Below are positions 9,427 to 63,990 of a DNA stretch of 64,000 nucleotides, piece by piece. How positions within the stretch are numbered: the stretch's first letter is position 1; the number at the start of each line of letters is the position of its first letter. Location of the stretch: contig JAGAZE010000038.1 in NCBI GenBank assembly GCA_017940185.1, positions 17,483 to 81,482 on the forward strand, read 5' to 3'. The notes beneath the pieces were generated by a model. That model did no database searches and was not told the origin of the DNA. It saw only the letters and a list, made by a program, of their open reading frames with translations. Source of the DNA: Bacteroidaceae bacterium (GTDB lineage Bacteria; Bacteroidota; Bacteroidia; Bacteroidales; Bacteroidaceae). The position numbers were made by a program, and so were the translations under genes.

Positions 9427-9602
9427 TTGGGCAACAGTTGGCGTGTGATTGGGCAACAGTTGGCGTGTGATTGGGCAACAGTTGGCGCGTGATTGGGCAA
9501 CAGTTGGCGTGCGATTGGGCAACAGTTGCGGTGTGATTGGGCAACAGTTGGCGTGTGATTGGGCAACAGTTGGCGTGTGATTGGGCAACAGTTGGCGTGA
9601 GG
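9427..9602. repeat. 22-bp tandem array 1 (8 copies)
   Basis: Eight contiguous 22-bp units (starts 9427, 9449, 9471, 9493, 9515, 9537, 9559, 9581) share the core TTGGGCAACAGTTG with small changes in the last bases. There are no spacers, so this is not CRISPR. The same core at the same 22-bp period occurs at 41831-41940 and, inverted, at 63505-63629. ORFs through it give only low-complexity repeats and are considered spurious. Confidence 0.95.
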
Positions 9603-26587: not shown

Positions 26588-26723
26588 CAACATTCACAGC
26601 GGGTAACATCAACTTTCAGTCACGTTGTATCTTGTGCTCGCACACCATATTCCGACACTTTTAACCACGGACACTTCCATTATCAGACACACCAAATTAT
26701 TATTTAACCAAAACCACTGTTTT

Positions 26724-28430
26724 ATGAAGAAATCACTACTTCTTTTGGCCATGGTAGCCACCGCCACCGTTGCCACCGCTCAGGTGCAGAAGAGCACACA
26801 GGAGCAAGCGCTCTCTCAGATGGCTCTCCACACACCGCAGCTCAACATGGTTGCTCCCGAAGCAACATGCACCGACGACATCACCTTCAAGGCCTCAGGT
26901 CCCAAGAAGAGCGTGGCCGACAAGGTGTTCTTCACCCGTCCTTGGGGAACCTACTATCGCAGTAACCTCTCTTGGACCGATTGGACAGGTACTGTTCTGA
27001 AAGTGCCTGGCGCTACCGACATCGTGCTCACCAACCGCTCCGCAGACAAGAGTGCCTCAACATGGGTTGCCAGCAAGCTGAGCACCAACGCCTACTCCAA
27101 CGTTGACGAAAACGGCAATGCCGTAGTGCGTCTCGCCCGTTCCAACGGTTATGTGTACTACCTGCCCGCCATGATGGCTGGCGATACCATGTCCTTCAGC
27201 CTTGGTCTGGATGTCGACCGCATGTACTACGAGCCCACCGACAGCCTCTCGCTCATGACACTGCAAGATACACGCTATGTCTACACAGGCTTCTCCAACA
27301 CCGGCTACTTCGGACTGAAGGGTAAGGACGACCCCTGGAACCTCACTGTTAACGGTGTCACACGTCCTGCCACCGTGGCTCGTCTCGTTCAGCCGTATCC
27401 CCAACCCCTGCGCCCCTACTGCCTCTACAATCTGCAGTTCAATGCCGAGGGTATGCCTTGCACTGCTGAGGAGATGACCCCCATCTTCAAAGGCGATGCA
27501 CACCTCGACATCTACTTCATCGGCACACAAGACAAAGACACTCTCGGACACATGACTGCCGGAGCCGCCGACACCATTGGCTATACCTACAACGTGGGCG
27601 TAGAGCGTGCTACCTCCACAGTGGTCGCTGCCCAGTATGAGGAAGACGCTTTCGGTAACCTGGTGGTGAAACCTATCATCCTCGACAAGCCCTTCACCCT
27701 CGTCATCGATGGTTTCGACCGTGAAGGTGTGGAGTGCGGTATCTATATGACCGCTCAGACCAACGTGCGCTGGGAGCGCCACGACGTTGTGGCCGACGCT
27801 ATCCGTCCCACTGTGGTACAGCCTAAGTTCATCGATACTGAAGGTGGCTATCGCTATCCGCTCGACAATATCTCCAGCGGCTACTGGCAGTATAGTGCCA
27901 CAGGCAACAGCTATTCAATGGTTACCTATCTGAATGGTTTCTGGGATGTTGTCGACGTAATTGCCGGCGACCAGCTCACTGCTCCCGTAGCAGGCGGACG
28001 CTGCACCTTCGTAAGCGATGGCTCCACCTTTGTAGGCCCGCAGTACCAGTCCACCCGTCCTTACATTGAGGAAGGCAGCCGCGTGCCCAACTACCAAGTA
28101 GAGGGCCTGCCCAGCTGGCTCAGCATCACACAGAACATCGATGCCAACTACAACGCCGACGCCGGATGGGTCAACATCCTCGACCTCAATGCCGAGGCTC
28201 TGCCCAATGGTGTTTCCGGTCGTGTGGCTCAGTTCACTATCACCAGCGAGTTTGGTGCCAAGTCGAATGTTGTCACTGTCGTTCAGGGTGATGCTACCGG
28301 CATCACCACCATCGACAACAAGACTGGGAATACAGGCAACGGTGCCATCTACAACCTTGCAGGCCAGCGCGTCAACGACAGCTACAACGGCGTAGTGATC
28401 GAGAATGGCAAGAAAGTCATCAAGAAGTAA
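26724..28430 (+). CDS. Exported surface protein, tandem paralogue 3 of 6
   Basis: A 568-residue protein; the start at 26724 begins a clear signal peptide (LLLLAMVATATVATAQ). Landmarks: FFTRPWGTYYRSNLSWTDW near 75, VPGATDIVLTNRSADKSAS, LVQPYPQPLRPYCLYNLQF near 230, HLDIYFIGTQDKDTLGHM, PIILDKPFTLVIDGFDREG near 325, FWDVVDVIAGDQLTAPVAGG, a BACON-like module (GLPSWLSITQ, GRVAQFTITSEFGAKSN) and the tail YNLAGQRV / GVVIENGKKVIKK. Strongly similar to paralogue 4 throughout, and to paralogue 2 in its last 120 codons. Likely surface-exposed; carbohydrate binding is only suggested by the BACON-like fold. Confidence 0.78.
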   Translation: MKKSLLLLAMVATATVATAQVQKSTQEQALSQMALHTPQLNMVAPEATCTDDITFKASGPKKSVADKVFFTRPWGTYYRSNLSWTDWTGTVLKVPGATDIVLTNRSADKSASTWVASKLSTNAYSNVDENGNAVVRLARSNGYVYYLPAMMAGDTMSFSLGLDVDRMYYEPTDSLSLMTLQDTRYVYTGFSNTGYFGLKGKDDPWNLTVNGVTRPATVARLVQPYPQPLRPYCLYNLQFNAEGMPCTAEEMTPIFKGDAHLDIYFIGTQDKDTLGHMTAGAADTIGYTYNVGVERATSTVVAAQYEEDAFGNLVVKPIILDKPFTLVIDGFDREGVECGIYMTAQTNVRWERHDVVADAIRPTVVQPKFIDTEGGYRYPLDNISSGYWQYSATGNSYSMVTYLNGFWDVVDVIAGDQLTAPVAGGRCTFVSDGSTFVGPQYQSTRPYIEEGSRVPNYQVEGLPSWLSITQNIDANYNADAGWVNILDLNAEALPNGVSGRVAQFTITSEFGAKSNVVTVVQGDATGITTIDNKTGNTGNGAIYNLAGQRVNDSYNGVVIENGKKVIKK

Positions 28431-28466
28431 GCATGCGCGCTGAAGCGTTTTCACATTGCTACATTG

Positions 28467-28500
28467 AAGTGCGGAGCCGTCAAGCTCCGCACTTTTCCTT
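28467..28500 (+). terminator. Terminator after paralogue 3
   Basis: 11-bp stem AAGTGCGGAGC (28467-28477) with GCTCCGCACTT (28484-28494), then TTTCCTT. Confidence 0.9.
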
Positions 28501-28605
28501 TATACAAACTCCTGCTCAGCAGTCGCTGAGTCAGCGGCAGTATCCTGCAACACTTTTCCGATATCATGCAGAAGGGACACATAAGATGGGAAAAAGCGAC
28601 GGAAT

Positions 28606-28637
28606 GTTTGCGAAAACCTGAAAGTTTCGTACATTCG
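28606..28637 (+). promoter_or_regulatory. Probable weak promoter of paralogue 4
   Basis: TTTG (28606-28609), 20-bp spacer, TACATTCG (28630-28637), which departs from TAnnTTTG at one position. About 29 nt before the ATG at 28666. Confidence 0.45.
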
Positions 28638-28665
28638 CTCGTCAATCCTAATAATCTCTACTATT

Positions 28666-30372
28666 ATGAAGAAAACACTACTTCTCAGCACTTTGCTCGT
28701 CAGTGTGCTAACAGTGTGCGCTCAGGTGTCGCAACGTGAAACAGATATGCCGCTTGTGCGCTATTCTCAGCACATCGGCGTGCTCGACATGCCCATGGCA
28801 GTCCCGCAATGCTCCGACGATGCTACCGCCGCAGTGCCCGTGCGTCGCAAGAGCGTGGCCGACGGCGTGTATTTCACACGTCCGTGGGGTACTTTCTATC
28901 GCAGCAACCTCTCTTGGACCGGCTTCACCGGCAGTATTCTGAAAGTGCCCGGCGCTACCGATGTGGTGCTCACCAACCATTCGGCACACAAGGATAATAC
29001 ACACTGGACCATCAGTAAAGACAGCACCACGCCCTTTACCAACACAGATGCCGAAGGCAATGCTGTCATTCGTGGCGTGCGCGCCAATGGCCTGGTCTAC
29101 ACACTTCCTGCCCTCCATGCCGATGGAGCAGAAACGTTCTGTCTCGGGCTGGATGTCGACCGTATGTTCTACGAACCCACCGACACCTTCCAGCTCATGA
29201 CACTGCAAGACACACGCTACACCTACAGCGGATTCAACGATGGGTGTTTCTTCGGACTATATGGAAAGGAAACAACCTGGAACATCACTGTCAATGGTGT
29301 TACCCGTCCGGGAGAGACGTTTCGCTTGATTCAGCAATATCCCGAGCCGCTGCGCCCTTTCTGCCTGCATAGTTTGCAGTTCACGGCTCAAAGTATGAAG
29401 TGCACCGCCGACGACCCGCATCCCATCTTTAAGGACGATGCTTGTCTCGACATCTACTTCATCGGCCGTGAGAGTGGCGATACGCTCGGCCACATGACAG
29501 CCTCTGCCTACGACACACTGAGCTACACCTATAATGCCACACTCGAGCGTGGCGTGTCTGTGGTGCAGGTGGCGCAGACAGAAGAAGACTGGTTTGGCAA
29601 TCAGACAGTGAAACCCATTATCCTCGACGAAGCTTTCACGCTGGTGATGGAAGGCTTCGACCGCGAAGGCGTAGAGTGCGGCATCTACATGACGGCACAG
29701 GGCAACCTGCCCTGGGAACGCCACGACATCGTCAGCGATGCCATCGTGCCCACGCGCGTACAGCCGAAATATACCGATGAAGAAGGAGGCTATCGCTATG
29801 CCTACGACAACATCACGAGCGGATATTATCAGTTTACCGCCGGCACGAGAAGTTATTCCATGGTCAACTATCTGAACGGCTTCTTCGATGTGGTGGATGT
29901 AGTGGCCGGCGACAGCCTGACGGCACCCGCCGCCGGAGGCAGGTGCACCTTCGAGAACGGAGGCACTGCCTATATAGGGCCGCAGTATCAGTCTACACGC
30001 CCCTACATCTTTCCCGACAGCCGTACGCCCAAATACACCGTCGAAGGCCTGCCCGGCTGGCTGACCGTGGAAGGCAACTTCGACAACAACTACAACACCG
30101 ACAACGCATGGATCAACATCCTCTCCCTGCAGGCAGAGCCGCTGCCCGAGGGCGTGGCGGGACGCAAGGCCGAGCTCACCATTGTCAGCGAGTATGGAGC
30201 CAAGTCGGAGATTGTTACAGTCGTACAGGGCGATGCCACAAGCATCACCACCATCGACAACAAGAGTGAGGGCACGGGCAATGGAACCGCCTACAACCTC
30301 GCAGGCCAGAGAGTCAACAGTGCTTACACCGGCGTAGTGATAGACGGTGGAAAGAAAATCATCAGAAAGTAA
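28666..30372 (+). CDS. Exported surface protein, tandem paralogue 4 of 6
   Basis: A 568-residue protein, the same length as paralogue 3. Signal peptide LLLSTLLVSVLTVCAQ. Landmarks: YFTRPWGTFYRSNLSWTGF near 73, VPGATDVVLTNHSAHK, LIQQYPEPLRPFCLHSLQF near 230, CLDIYFIGRESGDTLGHM, PIILDEAFTLVMEGFDREG, FFDVVDVVAGDSLTAPAAGG, a BACON-like module (GLPGWLTVEG, GRKAELTIVSEYGAKSE, VQGDATSI) and the tail YNLAGQRV / GVVIDGGKKIIRK. Clearly a duplicate of paralogue 3 that has diverged. Confidence 0.78.
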   Translation: MKKTLLLSTLLVSVLTVCAQVSQRETDMPLVRYSQHIGVLDMPMAVPQCSDDATAAVPVRRKSVADGVYFTRPWGTFYRSNLSWTGFTGSILKVPGATDVVLTNHSAHKDNTHWTISKDSTTPFTNTDAEGNAVIRGVRANGLVYTLPALHADGAETFCLGLDVDRMFYEPTDTFQLMTLQDTRYTYSGFNDGCFFGLYGKETTWNITVNGVTRPGETFRLIQQYPEPLRPFCLHSLQFTAQSMKCTADDPHPIFKDDACLDIYFIGRESGDTLGHMTASAYDTLSYTYNATLERGVSVVQVAQTEEDWFGNQTVKPIILDEAFTLVMEGFDREGVECGIYMTAQGNLPWERHDIVSDAIVPTRVQPKYTDEEGGYRYAYDNITSGYYQFTAGTRSYSMVNYLNGFFDVVDVVAGDSLTAPAAGGRCTFENGGTAYIGPQYQSTRPYIFPDSRTPKYTVEGLPGWLTVEGNFDNNYNTDNAWINILSLQAEPLPEGVAGRKAELTIVSEYGAKSEIVTVVQGDATSITTIDNKSEGTGNGTAYNLAGQRVNSAYTGVVIDGGKKIIRK

Positions 30373-30390
30373 ATCACAGGTGAAAACAGA

Positions 30391-30426
30391 AAGGTGTACC
30401 GGCCTCGGGTTAGTACACTTTTTTTG
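30391..30426 (+). terminator. Terminator after paralogue 4
   Basis: GTGTAC (30394-30399) pairs with GTACAC (30413-30418), followed by a run of seven or more T. Short stem but well placed. Confidence 0.7.
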
Positions 30427-30438
30427 CATAAAACCTTT

Positions 30439-30465
30439 GCGTCCACGAAATAAGCATTACCTTTG
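30439..30465 (+). promoter_or_regulatory. Promoter of paralogues 5-6
   Basis: CCTTTG, an 18-bp spacer and TACCTTTG (30458-30465). About 90 nt precede the ATG at 30557. Paralogue 6 starts only 22 bp after paralogue 5 and probably shares this promoter. Confidence 0.65.
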
Positions 30466-30556
30466 TTCGCACATCACAGGCAACACACAAGGTTGAGGTG
30501 CTTTCCCCTCAGCCGGTGTTTGTGGGTAGTGTGTAAGAAAAGATAAACAAAATAAT

Positions 30557-32242
30557 ATGAAAACACGCAAATTGTTATTGTTGGTCTGCTCGCTGTGTAG
30601 CCTGACAAGTTTCTCACAACCTTCCATGTCAACTACTGCCGATGTTTCTTCTTCGGCTTCCAACTATCTGCCCCGCATCAGCGCAGCCACACGCGGCACC
30701 CTCAAAGCGCAGGGCTCCCCGCAGCAGGCTCCCGAACTGATGCGCGACCCCTACTACCACCGCGACTTCGGCACCTACTACATCAACTATCGCCGTGAAG
30801 TGTTCAGTGGCGGTGTGGGACAGTGGGTTGACGGCATGTACCTCATGACGGCACCTTTCACACAGCTGATGTTCACCAATATGGCTTCCGACAAGAGCAA
30901 AACCGTGTTCAAGTGCTACAACAGCTTCTACAAGGTGTACATCGACTTTGCCAAAGACATCTTCGACAACTACTCCATGACACCCACCAAGGGCTCCAAC
31001 TACTACATCCCCATGGTGATGCCCAGCGAGGGTGAGCCTGGCGACACCTTCTATGTGGGCCGCAATATCGGCTACTCCGACTACGTATATACCACCACGC
31101 GCGACACCATGGGCGGCGAACTCTTCTCGCTCACCGACAACTACTACGCCTACGGCTACTTTGCCGACTTCGGCGTGGGCACCGAAGGCAGCTTCTATGG
31201 TTCCAACCGCGGCAACACACCCATCGGACACTGCACACGTGTATACCAATACTACCCTAAACCCATCAAGCCGCTGGCCATCAGTAAGATAAAGTTCTCC
31301 GGCTACAGCTTCAACCGCACCGATGCAGCAGCAAGCATCCTTCCCTTCGACGGCGACGGATGCCTCACCATCAGCATCCTACGCGGCGACAACCCCAACG
31401 GCACCGACATCATAGCACAGATGAAGGTCGACAACAGCAACATCGTGCTCAGCTACTACGACGACGTGGTGGGAGCCACCTACCATGAGATAGAGGCAAC
31501 GCCCGCCGACGCAGACGGTGAAGGCAACATCGTGGCCAAACCCTTTGTCGTAGACGACGAATACACCCTCGTCATCGATGGATTCTCGCCCGATAAGGCC
31601 GACATCGGCATAGGCAACACCGACCAAAGCAAGGTGTACTGGGACGGCGACCGCAGCGACACAGCACCCGTACGCCCCACACATGCCGTCTACACCGATG
31701 GCACCGACTACACCATGCCCGCCAACAATGCACGCATCTACTTTGATGGCTGCTACGACGTGGCCAACGTAATAGGCAGCACCACGCTCACAGCACCCGC
31801 AGCAGGCGGAGCATGCACCTTTGAGGCAAACGGCAACACCTACTATGGACCGCAGGTGCAGACTTCGCATGCATATATCAATAGTGTCAGCGGCGAACCC
31901 AACTATCGGTTGGAAAACCTGCCCGAATGGCTCACCATCGAACGCTGCGCCACCAACAACTACAACTCCTCAGGCAGTTGGACACAGGTGTTCATCGTCA
32001 ATGCCGAGGCATTGCCGGCAGGCCTCTCCGGCCGTACAGCACAGGTGAAGGTTGTGAGCGACCTCGGCGCATGCAGCCAGGTGATTACCTTCCTGCAAGG
32101 TGATGCCACGGGCATCACCACCATCGACGACAAGGCCGACAACACTGGCAATGCTGCTGTCTACAACCTTGCCGGACAGCGCGTGGGAGCCGACTATCGC
32201 GGCATCGTGGTGCAGAAAGGGAAGAAAATACTCGTCAGATGA
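30557..32242 (+). CDS. Exported surface protein, tandem paralogue 5 of 6
   Basis: A 561-residue protein with signal peptide LLLLVCSLCSLTSFSQ. Landmarks: YYHRDFGTYYINYRREV near 70, MTAPFTQLMFTNMASDKSKT, YQYYPKPIKPLAISKIKFSG near 235, LRGDNPNGTDIIAQMKVDN, FVVDDEYTLVIDGFSPDKAD near 335, YDVANVIGSTTLTAPAAGGA, a BACON-like module (NLPEWLTIER, GRTAQVKVVSDLGACSQ) and the tail YNLAGQRV / GIVVQKGKKILVR. Closest in plan to paralogue 2. Its 3' end shares a DNA stretch of about 53 identical bases with paralogue 6. Confidence 0.78.
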   Translation: MKTRKLLLLVCSLCSLTSFSQPSMSTTADVSSSASNYLPRISAATRGTLKAQGSPQQAPELMRDPYYHRDFGTYYINYRREVFSGGVGQWVDGMYLMTAPFTQLMFTNMASDKSKTVFKCYNSFYKVYIDFAKDIFDNYSMTPTKGSNYYIPMVMPSEGEPGDTFYVGRNIGYSDYVYTTTRDTMGGELFSLTDNYYAYGYFADFGVGTEGSFYGSNRGNTPIGHCTRVYQYYPKPIKPLAISKIKFSGYSFNRTDAAASILPFDGDGCLTISILRGDNPNGTDIIAQMKVDNSNIVLSYYDDVVGATYHEIEATPADADGEGNIVAKPFVVDDEYTLVIDGFSPDKADIGIGNTDQSKVYWDGDRSDTAPVRPTHAVYTDGTDYTMPANNARIYFDGCYDVANVIGSTTLTAPAAGGACTFEANGNTYYGPQVQTSHAYINSVSGEPNYRLENLPEWLTIERCATNNYNSSGSWTQVFIVNAEALPAGLSGRTAQVKVVSDLGACSQVITFLQGDATGITTIDDKADNTGNAAVYNLAGQRVGADYRGIVVQKGKKILVR

Positions 32243-32264
32243 TACACCTACAGATTTTTGCCTC

Positions 32265-33986
32265 ATGACCACAATTCCCGGTTTCCGCCTTCTGATGGCC
32301 ACACTCTTTGGCCTCACTGCCGTAGCCTCCTCCCTGTCGGCCCAATCAGTTGATGAGTCAACAGCCGTGGCAGTGGGCACTGGCGTTGCTCCGCGTTGTA
32401 TCGTGTGCAACAGTGCCGACATGCCAGTCCCCGAACTGCGAAAGAATAAAGCCAACGGCAACTACTACACCCGCCACTTCGGCACCTACTATCGCAATAC
32501 GAGCTACGACGGCAACCTGAGCACCAATACCACCATTGTGTCGGCTCCCTTCACGCCACTCACCTTCACCAACAGAAATGCCGCAGGCGTGGCTGCTCAG
32601 TGGCAATGCTACGACCGTGGTGCTTCTGCATGGAATGATGCCACCCCCGATGCCGATGGCAACTACACCATGACACCCTCAAAGGGGTTCTTCACCACCA
32701 ATAATCAGGTGCCTGCCCTCCTACTCAACGGCGAGCGATTCCATTTCGGACAATTCTCGGGCCTTGACGCATCGGGGCAGCCGTTATGGAGCGCCAATGC
32801 TGCCAATGCCAACATCGTCACTGCCGACAACCTTGGTGTGGGACTAATGTCACTCACCGACAATGTGTTGGTATATGGTGCCTTTGTCAACAGCCAGGGA
32901 AAGCGTGGTGCCTTCTATGGCAGCAGCGAGCCAGGCTATGGCATGTCGGTGTGTAAGGCGGTATGGCAATACTATCCGCAACCCATCCGCCCCATGGCGC
33001 TGAAGAGCATACGATGGATGGGCAACTCTTTCAACCTCGACGGCCCCGGGAGTGGTGGCGACACCATCCCTATCAAAGATGGCTATGCCTTGCACGCCTA
33101 CATCATCGCCGGCAACGACCGGGCCGGCACCGACACGCTGGCAAAGGCCGACATCACCAATCAGCAAGTGCTAAGCCGATGGTGGAATACAGGAATGAAT
33201 ACCTGGTACTTCACCTACGAGGTGTCTCTCAGCGTGCGCAATGCCCAGGGACAGTGGGAAGAAAAACCCGTGGTAATCAATCAACCCTTCACCCTCGTGC
33301 TTGAAGGGTTCGACGACGACAACGTCGATGTCGGTATCGACAATGTGCATCAGCAGAGCCTCTACTACGAGTCCGACCGCAGTGCCGACCTCGCCACGGC
33401 ACAGTCGTGGGGCATACCGCCCACGCTCATCACCTATGGAGGTACATCCATATTCTGGGTGCTCGGCAACAATGCGCGCATCTTCTTCGATGCCATGTTC
33501 GATGTAGTCAACGTGGTAAGTGGCGACAGCCTGTATGTGGGTAGTGACGGCGGACGCTGCTGGACCCTCTCAGAGGCACAGCGCGTAGAGGGACTTCGCT
33601 ACCAGTCGAGCCGTGCTTACAAGACGTCGGGCGTGCCCACCCCAAACTATAGTGTGCAGGGCTTGCCCGAGTGGTTGCGCATAGAGAGCAACGACAAAAG
33701 CAAGTATTTCTCTTCCAGTAACTGGGTCAACACCCTTCACCTCGTTGCCGGCCCACTCCCCGAAGGACTTAGCACGCGTCATGCCGACATACGCATAACA
33801 AGCGAGCTGGGTGCCGAGTCGCAAATGGTGCGCGTTGTGCAAGGCGATGCCACGGGCATCACCACACCCGAGGCAAGCACCGGCGGCACCACCCCGTCGC
33901 CAGCCTACAACCTTGCCGGACAGCGCGTGGGAGCCGACTATCGCGGCATCGTGGTGCAAGATGGTAAGAAACACATCGTGCGGTAA
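32265..33986 (+). CDS. Exported surface protein, tandem paralogue 6 of 6
   Basis: A 573-residue protein. The start at 32265 (TTIPGFRLLMATLFGL...SLSAQ) gives a signal peptide; the frame is open further upstream, but only as antisense-like reading through paralogue 5. Landmarks: YYTRHFGTYYRNTSYDG near 65, SAPFTPLTFTNRNAAGVA, WQYYPQPIRPMALKSIRWMG near 240, VINQPFTLVLEGFDDDNVD near 340, MFDVVNVVSGDSLYVGSDGG, a BACON-like module (GLPEWLRIES, RHADIRITSELGAESQM) and the tail YNLAGQRV / GIVVQDGKKHIVR. Last of the array; a GC-rich hairpin (34010-34029) follows. Confidence 0.78.
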   Translation: MTTIPGFRLLMATLFGLTAVASSLSAQSVDESTAVAVGTGVAPRCIVCNSADMPVPELRKNKANGNYYTRHFGTYYRNTSYDGNLSTNTTIVSAPFTPLTFTNRNAAGVAAQWQCYDRGASAWNDATPDADGNYTMTPSKGFFTTNNQVPALLLNGERFHFGQFSGLDASGQPLWSANAANANIVTADNLGVGLMSLTDNVLVYGAFVNSQGKRGAFYGSSEPGYGMSVCKAVWQYYPQPIRPMALKSIRWMGNSFNLDGPGSGGDTIPIKDGYALHAYIIAGNDRAGTDTLAKADITNQQVLSRWWNTGMNTWYFTYEVSLSVRNAQGQWEEKPVVINQPFTLVLEGFDDDNVDVGIDNVHQQSLYYESDRSADLATAQSWGIPPTLITYGGTSIFWVLGNNARIFFDAMFDVVNVVSGDSLYVGSDGGRCWTLSEAQRVEGLRYQSSRAYKTSGVPTPNYSVQGLPEWLRIESNDKSKYFSSSNWVNTLHLVAGPLPEGLSTRHADIRITSELGAESQMVRVVQGDATGITTPEASTGGTTPSPAYNLAGQRVGADYRGIVVQDGKKHIVR

Positions 33987-34093: not shown

Positions 34094-34124
34094 TTTGCAG
34101 TTTTCCGCAATGTCCTTATCTTTG
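34094..34124 (+). promoter_or_regulatory. Promoter of the LRR-lipoprotein leader (copy 1)
   Basis: TTTG (34094-34097), 19-bp spacer, TATCTTTG (34117-34124). The same spacing and flanks occur in copy 2 (63668-63698). Transcription from here gives a leader of about 540 nt before the small ORF at 34674. Confidence 0.8.
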
Positions 34125-34243
34125 CAGTGCATTATTCGCCCCCCCCCCATTTATAAAATAGAAAAAAAATAATCTGGAAAAACACACCAAGAATACACCT
34201 GTAGCTCCGACTGCTCCACGATAGCACCGTTTATTCCGTTACC

Positions 34244-34342
34244 ATGAAACAGCCCTGCCATATCTGCCTTCTTCCTGTACCTGCTGAGCAGCATTGCGCC
34301 CGTGCTGTTTTAACATTTATTTACCCCCCCCCCCGAATTTAA
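34244..34342 (+). CDS. Candidate leader peptide with poly-C tract, copy 1
   Basis: A 32-codon ORF beginning MKQPCHICLLPVPAEQHC and ending in a proline run encoded by eleven C (34324-34334). The copy at 63794 has only two base changes before the C-tract but ten C, giving a different C-terminus. Nearly all bases are conserved, so RNA rather than protein selection is possible. Whether it is translated is unknown. Confidence 0.45.
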   Translation: MKQPCHICLLPVPAEQHCARAVLTFIYPPPRI

Positions 34343-34404
34343 GAAATCTTAACGCAAAAACAGCCCTTTGGAGTGAGCCTATTGCTCCGAAAGGGCAGCA
34401 TTGT

Positions 34405-34437
34405 GTCCGCATGGCAACGCCTGCCGTGCGGGCTTTT
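34405..34437 (+). terminator. Attenuator-type terminator in leader copy 1
   Basis: A 12-bp stem (34405-34416 with 34422-34433; two or three G-U pairs) followed directly by TTTT. It lies about 237 bp before the next start codon, inside the presumed transcript, so readthrough must be regulated. Confidence 0.75.
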
Positions 34438-34456
34438 CTGTGTGGACGTATTCGGA

Positions 34457-34591
34457 AAACTCTGAAAACTCCGAAAACTCCGAATACTCTGAAAACTCTG
34501 AATACTCCGAAAACTCTGAATACTCCGAAAACTCTGAATACTCCGAAAACTCTGAATACTCCGAAAACTCTGAATACTCCGAATACTCCGA
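34457..34591. repeat. 9-bp tandem repeat (15 units) in the leader
   Basis: Fifteen contiguous 9-base units alternating AAACTCTGA and ATACTCCGA (an 18-bp higher-order period). It separates the terminator from the small ORF at 34674. Any frame yields a monotonous peptide, so it is treated as non-coding and probably length-variable. Confidence 0.95.
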
Positions 34592-34673
34592 ATACCCCAC
34601 CAACCCTTTCTTCAACCAAAGAAAGATTATATCACACAATATATATAACATATAAATCATAACTGAATATACA

Positions 34674-35036
34674 ATGAGCAAGTTAAGCACAATGCTGTCT
34701 TTTAGCGAATTGCACGATTTGAAGTTGCCCGCCGACTCACGTCCCGTCTCACCGGCCGACGCTCCCGATGGCAGGAAACCATACGCTTCGCCCGAGATAG
34801 TGATACACAGGCATCACTCGCCCGTGCTACCCCTGATGGCATCGAATGCGCATATCGGCGACGGCTTCGACCAGAACGACGACATCAGTGGCGGCAACAC
34901 CTCCGGAGACGGTTTCGTGGGTGAAGACATCGGCACGGGAGGCGGAGGAAATCCCGGCGGCGGCTTCGATGGCGAAGACATCATCTGGGGAGTACCGGCA
35001 AGGAGCAACAGTATGTTCAACGACCATGCCGATTAG
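34674..35036 (+). CDS. Small Gly/Asp-rich hypothetical protein preceding LRR lipoprotein
   Basis: A 120-residue protein. The N-half contains ELHDLKLPADSRP and KPYASPEIVIHRHHSPVLPLMAS; the C-half is glycine/aspartate-rich (GDGFDQNDDISGGN, GGGGNPGGGFDGED). The 'Y-x-x-P-E ... LMAS ... acidic/Gly tail' layout matches many short, uncharacterised Bacteroidales proteins. No signal peptide is evident. It lies 42 bp before the LRR lipoprotein gene and behind the attenuated leader, so the two are likely cotranscribed. Function unknown. Confidence 0.7.
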   Translation: MSKLSTMLSFSELHDLKLPADSRPVSPADAPDGRKPYASPEIVIHRHHSPVLPLMASNAHIGDGFDQNDDISGGNTSGDGFVGEDIGTGGGGNPGGGFDGEDIIWGVPARSNSMFNDHAD

Positions 35037-35078: not shown

Positions 35079-37229
35079 ATGAAAAAACAGACAATCCCTC
35101 ACATTTCCGGCATGTTGCTTCTTGCATGTGCCACCCTGCTGACAGGCAGCGCGCTGGTGTCGTGCTCGAGCGATGAGTTCCCGGAGCAGACTCCCGTTGA
35201 AGACTTCAGCTTCACTATCACCGCCCGCGGCACGCAAGGGGCTGGCGGCAGCTCGGCCAAGGCCGCTGACTTCGACGATGAAGACAGCGACAATGAGGCG
35301 GCATCCCCGCTGGCACTGCTCGTGCATGGCGAAGAAGACATCAATCCCGAAGGATGGAACGACCCGCAGGCCGAGTCGCTTACGGCAAAGATGACAGACT
35401 TCGCCACGCGCATGAAGACACTCTATCGCTACGACGGCAACAACAACTACCTCAGCGTGACCTGGAAGGCCGGCGACAAAATCGGTATCAAGACCGTTGC
35501 CAATGCCGCCAACAACACAAAGGAGTGGACCATGCTCACCCTCGATGCGGGTGCCGGCAACACGGTGGCCACCTTCGAAGGTCTGGCCTACTCGCGCAAC
35601 GACCTGCTGCCCGAGGGGTCGCAGAACATCGTGGCGGTGTATCCCTACTCGGCAGACGGCTCCTACGACTTCAACGTGCAGCCGGGCACCATCGCCGGAC
35701 TGGGCGACTTCGACGTGCGTGCCGACAACGGCGAACTGAACAATGCCAACGTGGCTGACCTCTATTTCAAGACGAAGATTTCCGTACTGCGCATCGCCAA
35801 GGAGTTCTTCGACCTGGGTGAGGACACCAAGACCAAGGGCAAGAGTGAGCTGACCGTCACCGTCAGCGGTGCCGGACTGGGTAACCACCTCGCCGACGTG
35901 TGCTCCGACGACGAGACGGCCACGGCAGGCTCCATCACAGCCACCGTGACTGTCGATGCCACATCGGGCAAGCCCCTGGAAGATGTCTTCCTCGCCTTCG
36001 TGCCCATCGACACCGATGTGTCGCTCTTCAACGTCGAGATACAGTCGGGCAACGACGTCAACACCTACAGCATGTACAATTTCCATAAGAGCCATTTCGA
36101 GACGGGCAAGATGTACAACCTCAAGCATCCGGGCACCGATGTGTCGGAACAGTGCATCGACTTCAAGGACGCGGTGGCCGAAGCCATCTGCCTGCAGAAT
36201 TTCGACACCGACGACAACGGCTGCATCTCCTACCGCGAGGCACGCTCGGTGACCTACCTCGGCACCGCCTTCCGAGGATCAGACATGCGCTACTTCCCCG
36301 AACTGCAATACTTCAACGCCCTCACAATGATATCGGCCAACGCATTCAACGGATGCACAAAGTTGGAGGAAATAGGTATACATGACGGAATAAAAATAAT
36401 AAGTAATAGTGCGTTCTTCAGTTGCACATCGCTTGCCACTCTCCCCTCGCTGGCAAATGTCACCGAGATAGGTGCGGACGCGTTCCAAGGTTGCACGTCG
36501 CTTGCCAATATCCCTTCACTTGCAAATGTTACAACGATAGGTAATCAAGCGTTCTACGATTGCACATCGCTTGCTACTCTCCCCTCCCTGGCAAATGTTA
36601 CAACGATAGGTGATCGAGCGTTCGAAAATTGCAAGTCGCTTGACAATCTTCCCGAATTGACAGCTTGTACAACGATAGGTGAGAGAGCATTCTTCGGTTG
36701 CCAATCATTAACATCTGTATCCGCTCCACTACTGACGGAAATCCCCGCTTACGCATTCTGGTACTGTTTCAATTTGTCAAATGTTTCCGGTCCTAATGTA
36801 AAAAGAATTTCTTATTATGCATTCTGCAATCTCTTTAATATGAGTAATCCTACACGACTCTATCCAACATTAAATTTCCCAGTGTTAGAGGAATTGGCTA
36901 CCGAAGCCATCGGTTTTAACTCGTATTTTGGTGATTATAGTGGCACACTAATATTGCCTAGTACTTTAAAAAGAGTTCAATATGATACCGGTGAAGTTCT
37001 GTCAGCATTTATGACAGAGAATTTATCAATATATTGTTATGCGACAACACCACCGACGGTGATAGATGGTGATGGAAATATCAATACTAAAAATGATGCA
37101 AATTACGTAGGAGACGTACCATTCATACCCAGTTCATGCACGCTATACGTCCCTGCTGCCAGTGTAAACGCTTATAAAACAGCCTTATGGTGGAGAACGA
37201 TTGCTTCCCAAATTCAAGCAATCCCATAG
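35079..37229 (+). CDS. Lipoprotein fusing fimbrillin-like, EF-hand-like and LRR_5 domains
   Basis: A 716-residue lipoprotein (LLTGSALVSCSSDEF, Cys about 29). Residues 45-355 resemble the fimbrillin/Mfa-like fold: SVTWKAGDKIGIKT, FEGLAY, NIVAVYPYSADG, FKTKISVLRI and FETGKMYNLKHPG. Next comes an EF-hand-like loop (FDTDDNGCISYREA near 370), then BspA-type LRR units of 23 residues and a final beta region. At DNA level the LRRs form 69-bp tandem repeats. Composition shifts to AT-rich after about 36360, unlike the GC-rich 5' half, suggesting a mosaic gene. Likely a surface adhesin. There is no T9SS tail; surface lipidation is expected instead. Confidence 0.8.
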   Translation: MKKQTIPHISGMLLLACATLLTGSALVSCSSDEFPEQTPVEDFSFTITARGTQGAGGSSAKAADFDDEDSDNEAASPLALLVHGEEDINPEGWNDPQAESLTAKMTDFATRMKTLYRYDGNNNYLSVTWKAGDKIGIKTVANAANNTKEWTMLTLDAGAGNTVATFEGLAYSRNDLLPEGSQNIVAVYPYSADGSYDFNVQPGTIAGLGDFDVRADNGELNNANVADLYFKTKISVLRIAKEFFDLGEDTKTKGKSELTVTVSGAGLGNHLADVCSDDETATAGSITATVTVDATSGKPLEDVFLAFVPIDTDVSLFNVEIQSGNDVNTYSMYNFHKSHFETGKMYNLKHPGTDVSEQCIDFKDAVAEAICLQNFDTDDNGCISYREARSVTYLGTAFRGSDMRYFPELQYFNALTMISANAFNGCTKLEEIGIHDGIKIISNSAFFSCTSLATLPSLANVTEIGADAFQGCTSLANIPSLANVTTIGNQAFYDCTSLATLPSLANVTTIGDRAFENCKSLDNLPELTACTTIGERAFFGCQSLTSVSAPLLTEIPAYAFWYCFNLSNVSGPNVKRISYYAFCNLFNMSNPTRLYPTLNFPVLEELATEAIGFNSYFGDYSGTLILPSTLKRVQYDTGEVLSAFMTENLSIYCYATTPPTVIDGDGNINTKNDANYVGDVPFIPSSCTLYVPAASVNAYKTALWWRTIASQIQAIP
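36384..36728. repeat. 69-bp tandem repeats encoding LRR units
   Basis: Five 69-bp units; the period is exact at 36453, 36522 and 36591 (recurring GCAAATGT). The outer copies are more diverged. Each encodes one 23-residue LRR, so copy number can change without frameshift. Confidence 0.85.
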
Positions 37230-41750: not shown

Positions 41751-41830
41751 TCGCCTGCACTCGCCTGCAACATCTACGACAAACGATGGGGTCTTGGCAG
41801 GAAACAGCGCAGCGCAAGTGTAGCCCAATT

Positions 41831-41940
41831 GCAGTGTGATTGGGCTTTACTTGCATTGCAATTGGGCTTTACTTGGGTTGTGATTGGGCAACACTTGCAT
41901 TGCAATCGGGCAATACTTGGAGCGTGATCAGGCAATACTT
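41831..41940. repeat. 22-bp tandem array 2 (5 copies)
   Basis: Units start at 41831, 41853, 41875, 41897 and 41919, with the core (T/C)GGGC(AAC/TTT)ACTTG. An inverted partial unit precedes it at 41816-41830. Same period and core as arrays 1 and 3. It lies between the arms of the inverted repeat. Apart from this array and a poorly defined stretch to 42105, no gene is seen in 41751-42105. Confidence 0.9.
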
Positions 41941-42105
41941 GCCAAGAAGGCCCTCAACACTGGGAGCGCAGACGCCCTCGATAGCACTCGTATCACTATT
42001 GCGCCATCTGCTTCGCAAGCCGATGAACGTATCCTCTTCGCCTTTCTCTTCGGCTGGTGTCCTTCGGTTCCTCTCTTCCCTTATTGGTGCAGGCAGTGTA
42101 AGCGG

Positions 42106-63423: not shown

Positions 63424-63504
63424 TGGGTGTAAGCAATTTTCAGTTGCCTGCACCGCTTACACCGCCTGCCCCCCCGCCACGTGCGAAGGGAAAGGCGAAA
63501 AGGC

Positions 63505-63629
63505 AAGTGTAGCCCAATCACCTTCCAAGTAAAGCCCAATTGCATGGCAAGTGTTGCCCGATTACCTTCCAACTGTTGCCCGATTGCAATGCAATCAGGC
63601 CCCAATCACAGTGCAATCGGGCAACACTT
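63505..63629. repeat. 22-bp repeat array 3 (inverted orientation)
   Basis: Units start at 63505, 63527, 63549, 63571, 63593 and about 63615, with core AAGTGTTGCCCGATTGCAAT, the reverse complement of array 2. Same 22-bp period. Confidence 0.85.
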
Positions 63630-63667: not shown

Positions 63668-63698
63668 TTTGCAGATTGCCGCGAAGTCCTTACCTTTG
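63668..63698 (+). promoter_or_regulatory. Promoter of structured leader copy 2
   Basis: TTTG (63668-63671), 19-bp spacer, TACCTTTG (63691-63698). Matches the promoter of copy 1 in spacing and context. Confidence 0.8.
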
Positions 63699-63703
63699 CA
63701 CCA

Positions 63704-63990
63704 TCCATTCCCCTTTTTACCATAAATAGGAAAACACCGAGAACCCACCTATAGCTCCGACTGCTCCACGATAGCGTCGCTTTCCCCACTACCATGAAAC
63801 AGCCCTGCCATATCTGCCTTCTTCCTGTACCTGCTGAGCAGCATTGCGACCGTGCTGTTTTAACATTTGTTTACCCCCCCCCCGAATTTCAGAAATATTA
63901 ACGCCGAACAGCCCCGTTGGAGTGAGCCGATTGCTCCGACAGGGAGTCGTTGTGTCCGTATGGCAACGCCTTCCGTGCGGACTTTTCTGC
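63704..63990 (+). ncRNA. Structured 5' leader element, copy 2 (window end)
   Basis: Homologous to 34130-34440. It has the block TAGCTCCGACTGCTCCACG, the small ORF, hairpin I (about 63912-63944) and hairpin II (63954-63963 with 63973-63982) followed by TTTT. The downstream gene lies beyond the window; an LRR or small-ORF operon like the first is expected. No gene is otherwise visible in 63369-64000. Confidence 0.7.
63794..63901 (+). CDS. Candidate leader peptide with poly-C tract, copy 2
   Basis: A 35-codon ORF, same start MKQPCHICLLPVPAEQHC as at 34244. The tract has ten C (63874-63883), so the frame after it differs from copy 1 and ends PPPEFQKY. Translation not shown. Confidence 0.45.
   Translation: MKQPCHICLLPVPAEQHCDRAVLTFVYPPPEFQKY

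Follow-up and report, generated by a model that had tools for sequence, protein, structure and literature searches.

A repeated leader with a C tract in its small open reading frame as a candidate phase-variable attenuator in a Bacteroidaceae genome

Phase variation by homopolymer tracts is known from coding genes or promoters, for example in Neisseria, Campylobacter and Helicobacter, and in Bacteroidota DNA inversions are the main known source of surface variation. Leader-peptide attenuators, such as those of the trp and his operons, consist of a short open reading frame (ORF) followed by a terminator hairpin. Here we describe a repeated leader in a 64,000-nucleotide stretch of a Bacteroidaceae genome (the window; contig C31, positions 17483-81482), in which a C tract lies inside the leader ORF and upstream of a terminator-like hairpin. 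The closest described system is pil1 of Streptococcus gallolyticus where repeats in the leader-peptide gene shift the frame and a longer peptide lets ribosomes open the terminator, a mechanism supported by chloramphenicol and mutants (PMC3894217). The pil1 and pil3 operons have in common with our leader a promoter, a leader-peptide ORF with a slippage-prone repeat and genes for surface structures downstream (putative in our case); in addition, one frame stops early and others stop inside the terminator hairpin or past it (PMC3894217). The pil1 repeat, however, is GCAGA (22 units) in a Firmicute and backed by mutants, whereas ours is a C homopolymer in Bacteroidota, known from sequence alone. 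Unlike pil1, the present case involves about ten copies of one leader family, an extra hairpin (hairpin I) and a stem at the start codon. We lean, if only slightly, towards the view that the leader is a pil1-like phase-variable transcription attenuator that uses a homopolymer, in Bacteroidota and at many operons.

A tract of variable length is shared with homopolymer phase variation elsewhere, but here it sits in an upstream leader ORF before a terminator-like hairpin rather than in a surface gene or promoter. Compared with the trp and his attenuators, the repeated codon is unmatched to a pathway and a homopolymer takes the place of the mixed codon run. In Bacteroides thetaiotaomicron, small ORFs in long 5' untranslated regions (UTRs) are reminiscent of leader peptides, and the cited part of that report describes no tract, switch or repeated leader (PMC7366714). 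We found no description of multi-locus phase variation of this kind in Bacteroidota in the open-access literature, where pil1 was the sole attenuator of this type noticed among the matches listed; the words attenuation, leader, terminator, gallolyticus and Prevotella are all absent from the main text of a phase-variation review published in 2025, whose Bacteroides passages, as far as consulted, mostly concern inversions.

The genome (G000) is a 2.09-Mb draft of 52 contigs, 89% complete, and a blastn search of it with the 347-bp leader block gave 12 matches (L001 to L012), ten of which extend beyond the C tract. Promoter type and gene content suggest that the bacterium is Prevotella-like. Two of these lie in the window, from 34094 (L001) and from 63668 (L003), and a preliminary description of this stretch had taken them for a two-copy repeat; both copies are real and their coordinates held on rechecking, but the family is wider. 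That description was likewise right in giving both copies a promoter with 19-bp spacing, the block TAGCTCCGACTGCTCCACG, a small ORF (ATG at 34244 and 63794), a GGAG/CTCC hairpin and a terminator-like hairpin with TTTT, and in placing the terminator about 237 bp from the start codon (the ATG at 34674 lies 237 positions past the end of the T run). The key feature, the C tract inside the small ORF, was absent from it. The parts of L001 and L003 are listed below.

34094..34124, forward strand: promoter of L001, TTTG-N19-TATCTTTG, as predicted from sequence
34139..34148, forward strand: first C tract (C10), just 3' of the inferred transcription start; other copies have shorter C runs here
34244..34342, forward strand: leader ORF of L001, 32 aa, MKQPCHICLLPVPAEQHCARAVLTFIYPPPRI, from the first ATG of the inferred transcript
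34324..34334, forward strand: C11 tract in the leader ORF, the proposed switch
34333..34662, forward strand: third of the frames that exit the tract, uninterrupted across hairpins I and II and the 18-bp repeats until a stop at 34660-34662
34363..34396, forward strand: hairpin I, GCCCUUUGGAG / CUCCGAAAGGGC, -20.5 kcal/mol, with covariation
34405..34437, forward strand: hairpin II and TTTT, like an intrinsic terminator, 12-bp stem
34455..34595, forward strand: tandem repeat with an 18-bp unit (2 x 9) of the type GAAAACTCTGAATACTCC, its length divisible by three and stop-free in the third frame
63668..63698, forward strand: promoter of L003, TTTG-N19-TACCTTTG, as predicted from sequence
63794..63901, forward strand: leader ORF of L003, 35 aa, MKQPCHICLLPVPAEQHCDRAVLTFVYPPPEFQKY
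63874..63883, forward strand: C10 tract of L003
63954..63986, forward strand: hairpin II and TTTT of L003; the contig ends just beyond, with the downstream gene out of view

These parts, like the RNA structure, the tract, the frame layout and the change in tract length between identically flanked copies, are evident from the sequence. We take the L001 promoter to be of the Bacteroidota type, with transcription probably starting at about 34130. L002, L004, L005, L006 and L008 also extend through hairpin II, L011 and L012 are divergent but full copies, and contig ends truncate L007 before hairpin II and L010 inside the tract. Every copy has the small ORF and then hairpins I and II unless a contig end cuts it, with L009 being the 5' half of a leader whose ORF continues in frame into the end of another gene. 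The -7 element TAnnTTTG is found in all copies but L012. As for the two unusual copies, L009, leader ORF included, is joined to what appears to be the C-terminal part of another protein and is perhaps a deletion relic. L012 (L012:1415-1742) is a promoterless divergent copy directly 3' of a tRNA-Pro gene (anticodon TGG, L012:1668-1742), an arrangement as if the tRNA promoter drives transcription.

The leader ORF leads into the tract in a consistent way: the first ATG 3' of the inferred transcription start opens an ORF into a C tract in 13 of the 16 leaders with a -7 element, other species included, and in L012, which has no such element, the ORF starts with TTG. A pure run of 10 to 15 C lies inside the ORF in nine of the ten copies that extend past the tract (C11, C10, C10, C15, C11, C10, C13 and C11 in L001 to L008, C12 in L011; L012 has C6). 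Ahead of the tract, the ORF has indels of 15 and 3 nt, and substitutions favour the ORF frame (0.72 vs 0.38 and 0.21; 0.70 vs 0.38 and 0.46 in a six-copy subset), a coding signal that is modest, with pairs that are non-independent. Tracts of at least nine C number 17 in the genome and ten of them are in leaders, nine inside the ORFs and one near the transcription start of L001. The string ACCCCCCCC occurs 10 times (3 in the reversed control), eight times in these leaders, and the motif TTTAC8 occurs eight times against once in the reversed control.

The length of the tract differs between near-identical copies within one genome. Over the 65 bases past the tract, L005 and L007 have 0 mismatches and carry C11 and C13; one mismatch separates L005 from L006 (C11 vs C10) and L006 from L007 (C10 vs C13), and two separate L003 from L007 (C10 vs C13). 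Because the flanks are identical or near-identical while the C counts differ, the tract appears to change faster than its flank, as far as the draft assembly shows. Among L001 to L008, the resulting frame differs in 19 of 28 pairs.

Past the tract, two frames close and one stays open. Stops lie 5 and 15 nt past the tract in L001, L002 and L004 to L008, and 9 and 19 nt past it in L011 and L012, so that nine of the ten copies combine two closed frames (5-19 nt) with an open third one. This third frame spans both hairpins in all nine except the truncated L007, where it is visible for 68 nt and ends before hairpin II. It runs for 325 nt in L001, stopping eleven bases 5' of the next ATG (34674), for 158 nt in L011 and for 185 nt in L012, and it is open to the contig end in L004, L005, L007 and L008. 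In L002 and L006 it ends at a TGA overlapping the ATG of the next gene, to which we give little weight because any open frame of that phase will produce such an overlap on reaching an ATGA gene. Over the 103 nt past the tract in eight aligned copies, the third frame contains 0 stops and the others 14 and 9; L002 was excluded from this test because of a 1-nt gap; even with this deletion past the tract, no stop interrupts its third frame before the next gene. For amino acids, the third frame in the eight copies scores -0.16 and one of the closed frames 0.93. Given no stops and yet such a score, the conserved property of the third frame is its openness, not a protein. At present the open frame is in use in L004 (C15) alone; the nine remaining copies with a tract are closed. 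Across five genomes, the layout (two frames closed within 20 nt, the third open for at least 49 nt) is found in 12 of 17 leaders, nine of these 12 being the related copies of this genome, and it arises in 4-14% of shuffles per leader. The number of shuffles per 1000 that are as open up to the gene is 1 for L001, 26 for L006, 78 for L012, 104 for L099, 128 for L002, 186 for L051, 197 for L011, 332 for L026, 353 for L084, 475 for L088, 633 for L135 and 866 for L168 (the leaders from other species are described below).

The leader RNA has a structure that covariation supports. In the alignment of nine matches (A1; L007, L009 and L010 excluded), the consensus fold comprises stem P1, an inner helix, hairpin I and hairpin II, and 95.8% of 378 pairing cells can pair. 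Stem P1 joins the AUGAAACAGC region to the GCUGUUUUAA region, and thereby the start-codon region to the codons preceding the tract. In line with the pair-preserving stem changes noted in the preliminary description, both partners have changed in 7 of 42 pairs and, counted by cell, in 16 cases; shuffles average 3.5 and 6.0, and 0 of 500 reach either value. A control in which partners were slid gave at most 3 pairs changed on both sides; the signal from additional pair types is less clear (23 of 500 shuffles). One P1 pair changes from G-C to A-U in L012. The weakest element is the inner helix (88.9% paired), and 19 of the 42 pairs are invariant. Hairpins I and II of L001 and hairpin II of L003 each fold better than 200 of 200 shuffles, and 10 of 200 shuffles are as good as the incomplete hairpin I piece of L011. 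For the whole leader, L001 has z = -3.29 (0 of 100 shuffles as good) and L003 z = -1.63 (11 of 200). Hairpin II has energies of -19.1 (L001), -15.2 (L003), -20.7 (L011) and -18.2 kcal/mol (L012), and T4-T6 follows it in all but L011. In L001 it is classed as terminator-like, as the preliminary description had it, and would be an intrinsic terminator between the leader ORF and the structural gene. By eye, the upstream GCUCCGAC could pair with the 5' arm of hairpin I; this box is altered in L011 and L012.

We propose that transcription starts from the promoter and that ribosomes on the leader ORF read on into the C tract. For most lengths of the tract, translation would reach a stop less than 20 nt past it and the ribosome would leave, hairpin II would form and transcription would end before the operon (OFF). 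Slippage, through a C gained or lost, would send the ribosome into the third frame, which is free of stops through hairpins I and II; the ribosome would then keep the terminator open and polymerase would enter the operon (ON). In some copies, this long frame would carry the ribosome to the start codon of the first gene or next to it. What we infer is that transcription terminates at hairpin II, that the tract slips within a population and that expression is ON or OFF as a result. An antitermination factor may still take part, but the dependence on antitermination envisaged in the preliminary description does not require one, since the C tract, together with the layout of the frames, suggests that the leader ORF switches frame. 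Since each of many operons carries its own tract, cells would express different random sets of genes. We suggest, tentatively, that in some ten operons of this bacterium, the visible ones including large exported proteins, the same leader acts as an independent hypermutable translational override of a terminator, making the cell surface a random combination of proteins.

By sequence, the leader is found in few of the genomes searched. Rfam at the gathering threshold has no family for it and recognises two tRNAs alone in the window, and under relaxed settings the best match to the leader is weak (20.1 bits vs a cut-off of 50), in agreement with the earlier view of an undescribed RNA. A covariance model of the nine copies found 11 places in this genome at E < 1e-14, nine of them by construction, and two weak ones (E 0.14 and 0.84). 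In the genus it matched 2 of 150 genomes, one being the genome itself, where many had been expected, and we therefore reject a widespread RNA family by sequence. Among 40 relatives, three matched at E 0.01, this genome counted, and the match in G004 is, by inspection, the C tract alone. A scan of genome contigs for the exact pattern, in a set from which this genome may be absent, returned one Rhizobium record, and two viral-contig records were discarded as having five C only and no surrounding leader. The small gene that follows L011 occurs in 3 of 249 genomes of the genus, this one included.

Leaders of related design are seen in other species. In G005, where the leader DNA is barely similar, four leaders (L026, L051, L084 and L088) have an ORF running into a C8-C13 tract, and those of L026, L051 and L084 stop 6, 4 and 11 nt past it. 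The gene downstream of L026 is orthologous to the small gene that follows L011; L051 and L088 are followed by small genes of this type, and L084 by the gene for a protein with a signal-like start. L135 of G006 has the -7 element, an ORF ending in PPPITSL, a small gene and a lipoprotein-like gene. L099 of G073 likewise has the -7 element; its ORF reads through C8, a small gene and a frame with a lipoprotein-like beginning are present, and one frame continues in phase into that small gene. L168 of G027 is possibly another case: it combines a promoter with C9 and a long hairpin that carries TTTT, and the protein downstream has a signal-like start, though the ORF is only ten residues long. Since TTTAC(n), where present, is read in frames that differ between species, what is kept seems to be the homopolymer and not a series of codons. 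G005 also has C tracts of 8 and 17 between TTTG and TATAAACCTTTG (L085, L087), which by inspection form the promoter spacer and may be another phase-variable device.

Among 60 regions of the genus with tracts of at least nine C, a selection from a longer list that was classified by script, with six read fully along with L099, L135 emerged as a clear leader and L168 as a possible one. TTTAC8 occurs in 86 of 200 genomes of the genus, and the idea that every such tract marks a leader was rejected, since most of those examined lie elsewhere. By hand count, 34 of 50 TTTAC8 tracts (46 of 52 classified regions) have an opposite-strand ORF of at least 150 aa within 500 nt; 40 of the TTTAC8 regions (44 tracts) were a selection from a longer list. 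Some TTTAC8 tracts have a -7 element upstream, e.g., L232, L252, L258 and L259. In L223, L225, L226, L236, L240, L250, L254 and L255, TTTAC8 is found 56-128 nt before the start of an ORF but in the opposite orientation, and thus forms a G tract before a gene in several members of the genus.

The next gene is visible for five copies in this genome (L001, L002, L006, L011 and L012), and the suggestion that the same leader precedes different operons is supported for several copies. Downstream of L001 lie the following genes.

34674..35036, forward strand: first operon gene, 120 aa, motif VLPLMASN, no Pfam or NCBIfam match
35079..37229, forward strand: 716-aa lipoprotein-like protein with BspA-type leucine-rich repeats (LRR_5)

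Small proteins encoded by paralogous genes follow L002 and L006. The genes after L011 encode a small protein of 88 aa, a protein of 778 aa whose start, by inspection, resembles that of a lipoprotein, and a GH5 enzyme; the gene after L012 encodes a protein of 237 aa with no match in Pfam. A motif such as LPLMAS or LLLAAS is common to the small proteins after L001, L002, L006 and L011, and two of them had no match when tested against Pfam and NCBIfam. A surface role is supported by a domain for L001 alone and by a signal-like start for L011, and would be putative in both cases.

Several other explanations need to be weighed against a phase-variable attenuator. The leader could be a stalling attenuator, in which proline codons halt the ribosome when proline-tRNA or elongation factor P is limiting and hairpins I and II refold. 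Proline runs do stall ribosomes, as the cited parts of two reports describe (PMC5021804, PMC8129111), all tracts read encode at least two prolines near the end of the ORF, and stem P1 brings the start-codon region together with the codons before the tract. However, the prolines come free, because a C homopolymer encodes proline in every frame; a sensor of codon runs should tolerate mixed proline codons, yet the nine long tracts in this genome are all pure C, and frames and tract lengths vary between near-identical copies. Moreover, the visible downstream genes (the leucine-rich repeat protein, the 778-aa protein with GH5, the 237-aa protein and the small proteins) are not for proline supply, and we consider stalling unlikely. 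The repeat might also be mainly a recombination handle, or a 5' end that was duplicated along with a gene family, and would then regulate no more than any ordinary promoter and 5' UTR do. This would agree with the position of 8 of the 12 copies less than 700 nt from a contig end, always on the 3' side, with the fusion of L009 to the end of another gene and with the paralogy of the genes after L002 and L006, but it sits poorly with RNA stems that covary, with the retention of the transcribed part without a promoter in L012 and with the preservation of much of the layout in G005, G006 and G073 despite little DNA similarity; its probability is, in our view, low.

Alternatively, termination or read-through could be decided by a factor, be it a NusG paralogue (UpxY-like), Rho acting at the C tract or a G-tract small RNA. 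C-rich unstructured RNA is typical of Rho sites. The genome has two NusG-family genes, so one may be a paralogue. In UpxY-type antitermination the NusG paralogue is encoded in the regulated operon, whereas none of the five visible operons here encodes a NusG-family gene; the two genes are on C5 and C13, and the contigs of those operons are C31, C27, C10 and C44. As for small RNAs, the cited part of a report on Helicobacter pylori describes RepG, which targets a G tract in the tlpB leader (PMC8295292). Any such factor would leave unexplained the frame layout and an ORF that is open into the tract, and we find this account improbable. The second NusG-family protein of the genome (L047, 195 aa), which may be UpxY-like, is not encoded next to any leader copy seen.

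A number of points weigh against the phase-variable attenuator. The evidence comes from one draft assembly, from related copies and from leaders of other species that fit partly. L012 lacks a promoter of its own and its tract is merely C6, in L003 one of the two early stops is gone so that two frames are open, and the T run of L011 is poor (GCTCTGTTT). For hairpin I, 39 of 200 shuffles are as good as the L003 piece, which is without the lower 5' arm, and 38 of 200 are as good as the L012 piece. The test of openness is strong for L001 and L006 alone, with values of 78-866 per 1000 in the other ten leaders, and the value of L001 is inflated by its tandem repeat. Coding selection on the long frame was considered and found unsupported, as amino acids are not conserved; a frame whose sole requirement is to be open would look like this, yet it gives no positive coding signal. 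In other species, the first ATG is unused in L051, L084 and L168, the ORFs of L088 and L099 are not closed early, and the layout of two closed frames and an open one is present in 3 of 7 leaders and missing from L026, L084, L088 and L099. Finally, most C tracts examined elsewhere in the genus are not in such leaders.

Should the attenuator model be correct, Bacteroidota would also use slipping homopolymers in leader ORFs before terminators, at many operons at once, and the pil1 mechanism would have a second, apparently independent example. It would also yield a sequence rule usable in metagenomes, namely a C tract in a leader ORF with two frames closed and one open through the terminator.

Two further features of the window were noticed. 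Four adjacent, apparently paralogous ORFs of 561-628 aa occupy 26625-33986, with the C-terminal motif YNLAGQRV, Y.G.V, GKK. Dispersed 22-bp tandem repeats of the type TTGGGCAACAGTTGG lie at 9427-9599, 41829-41942 and 63502-63588, and similar ones are found near L011 and in L144.
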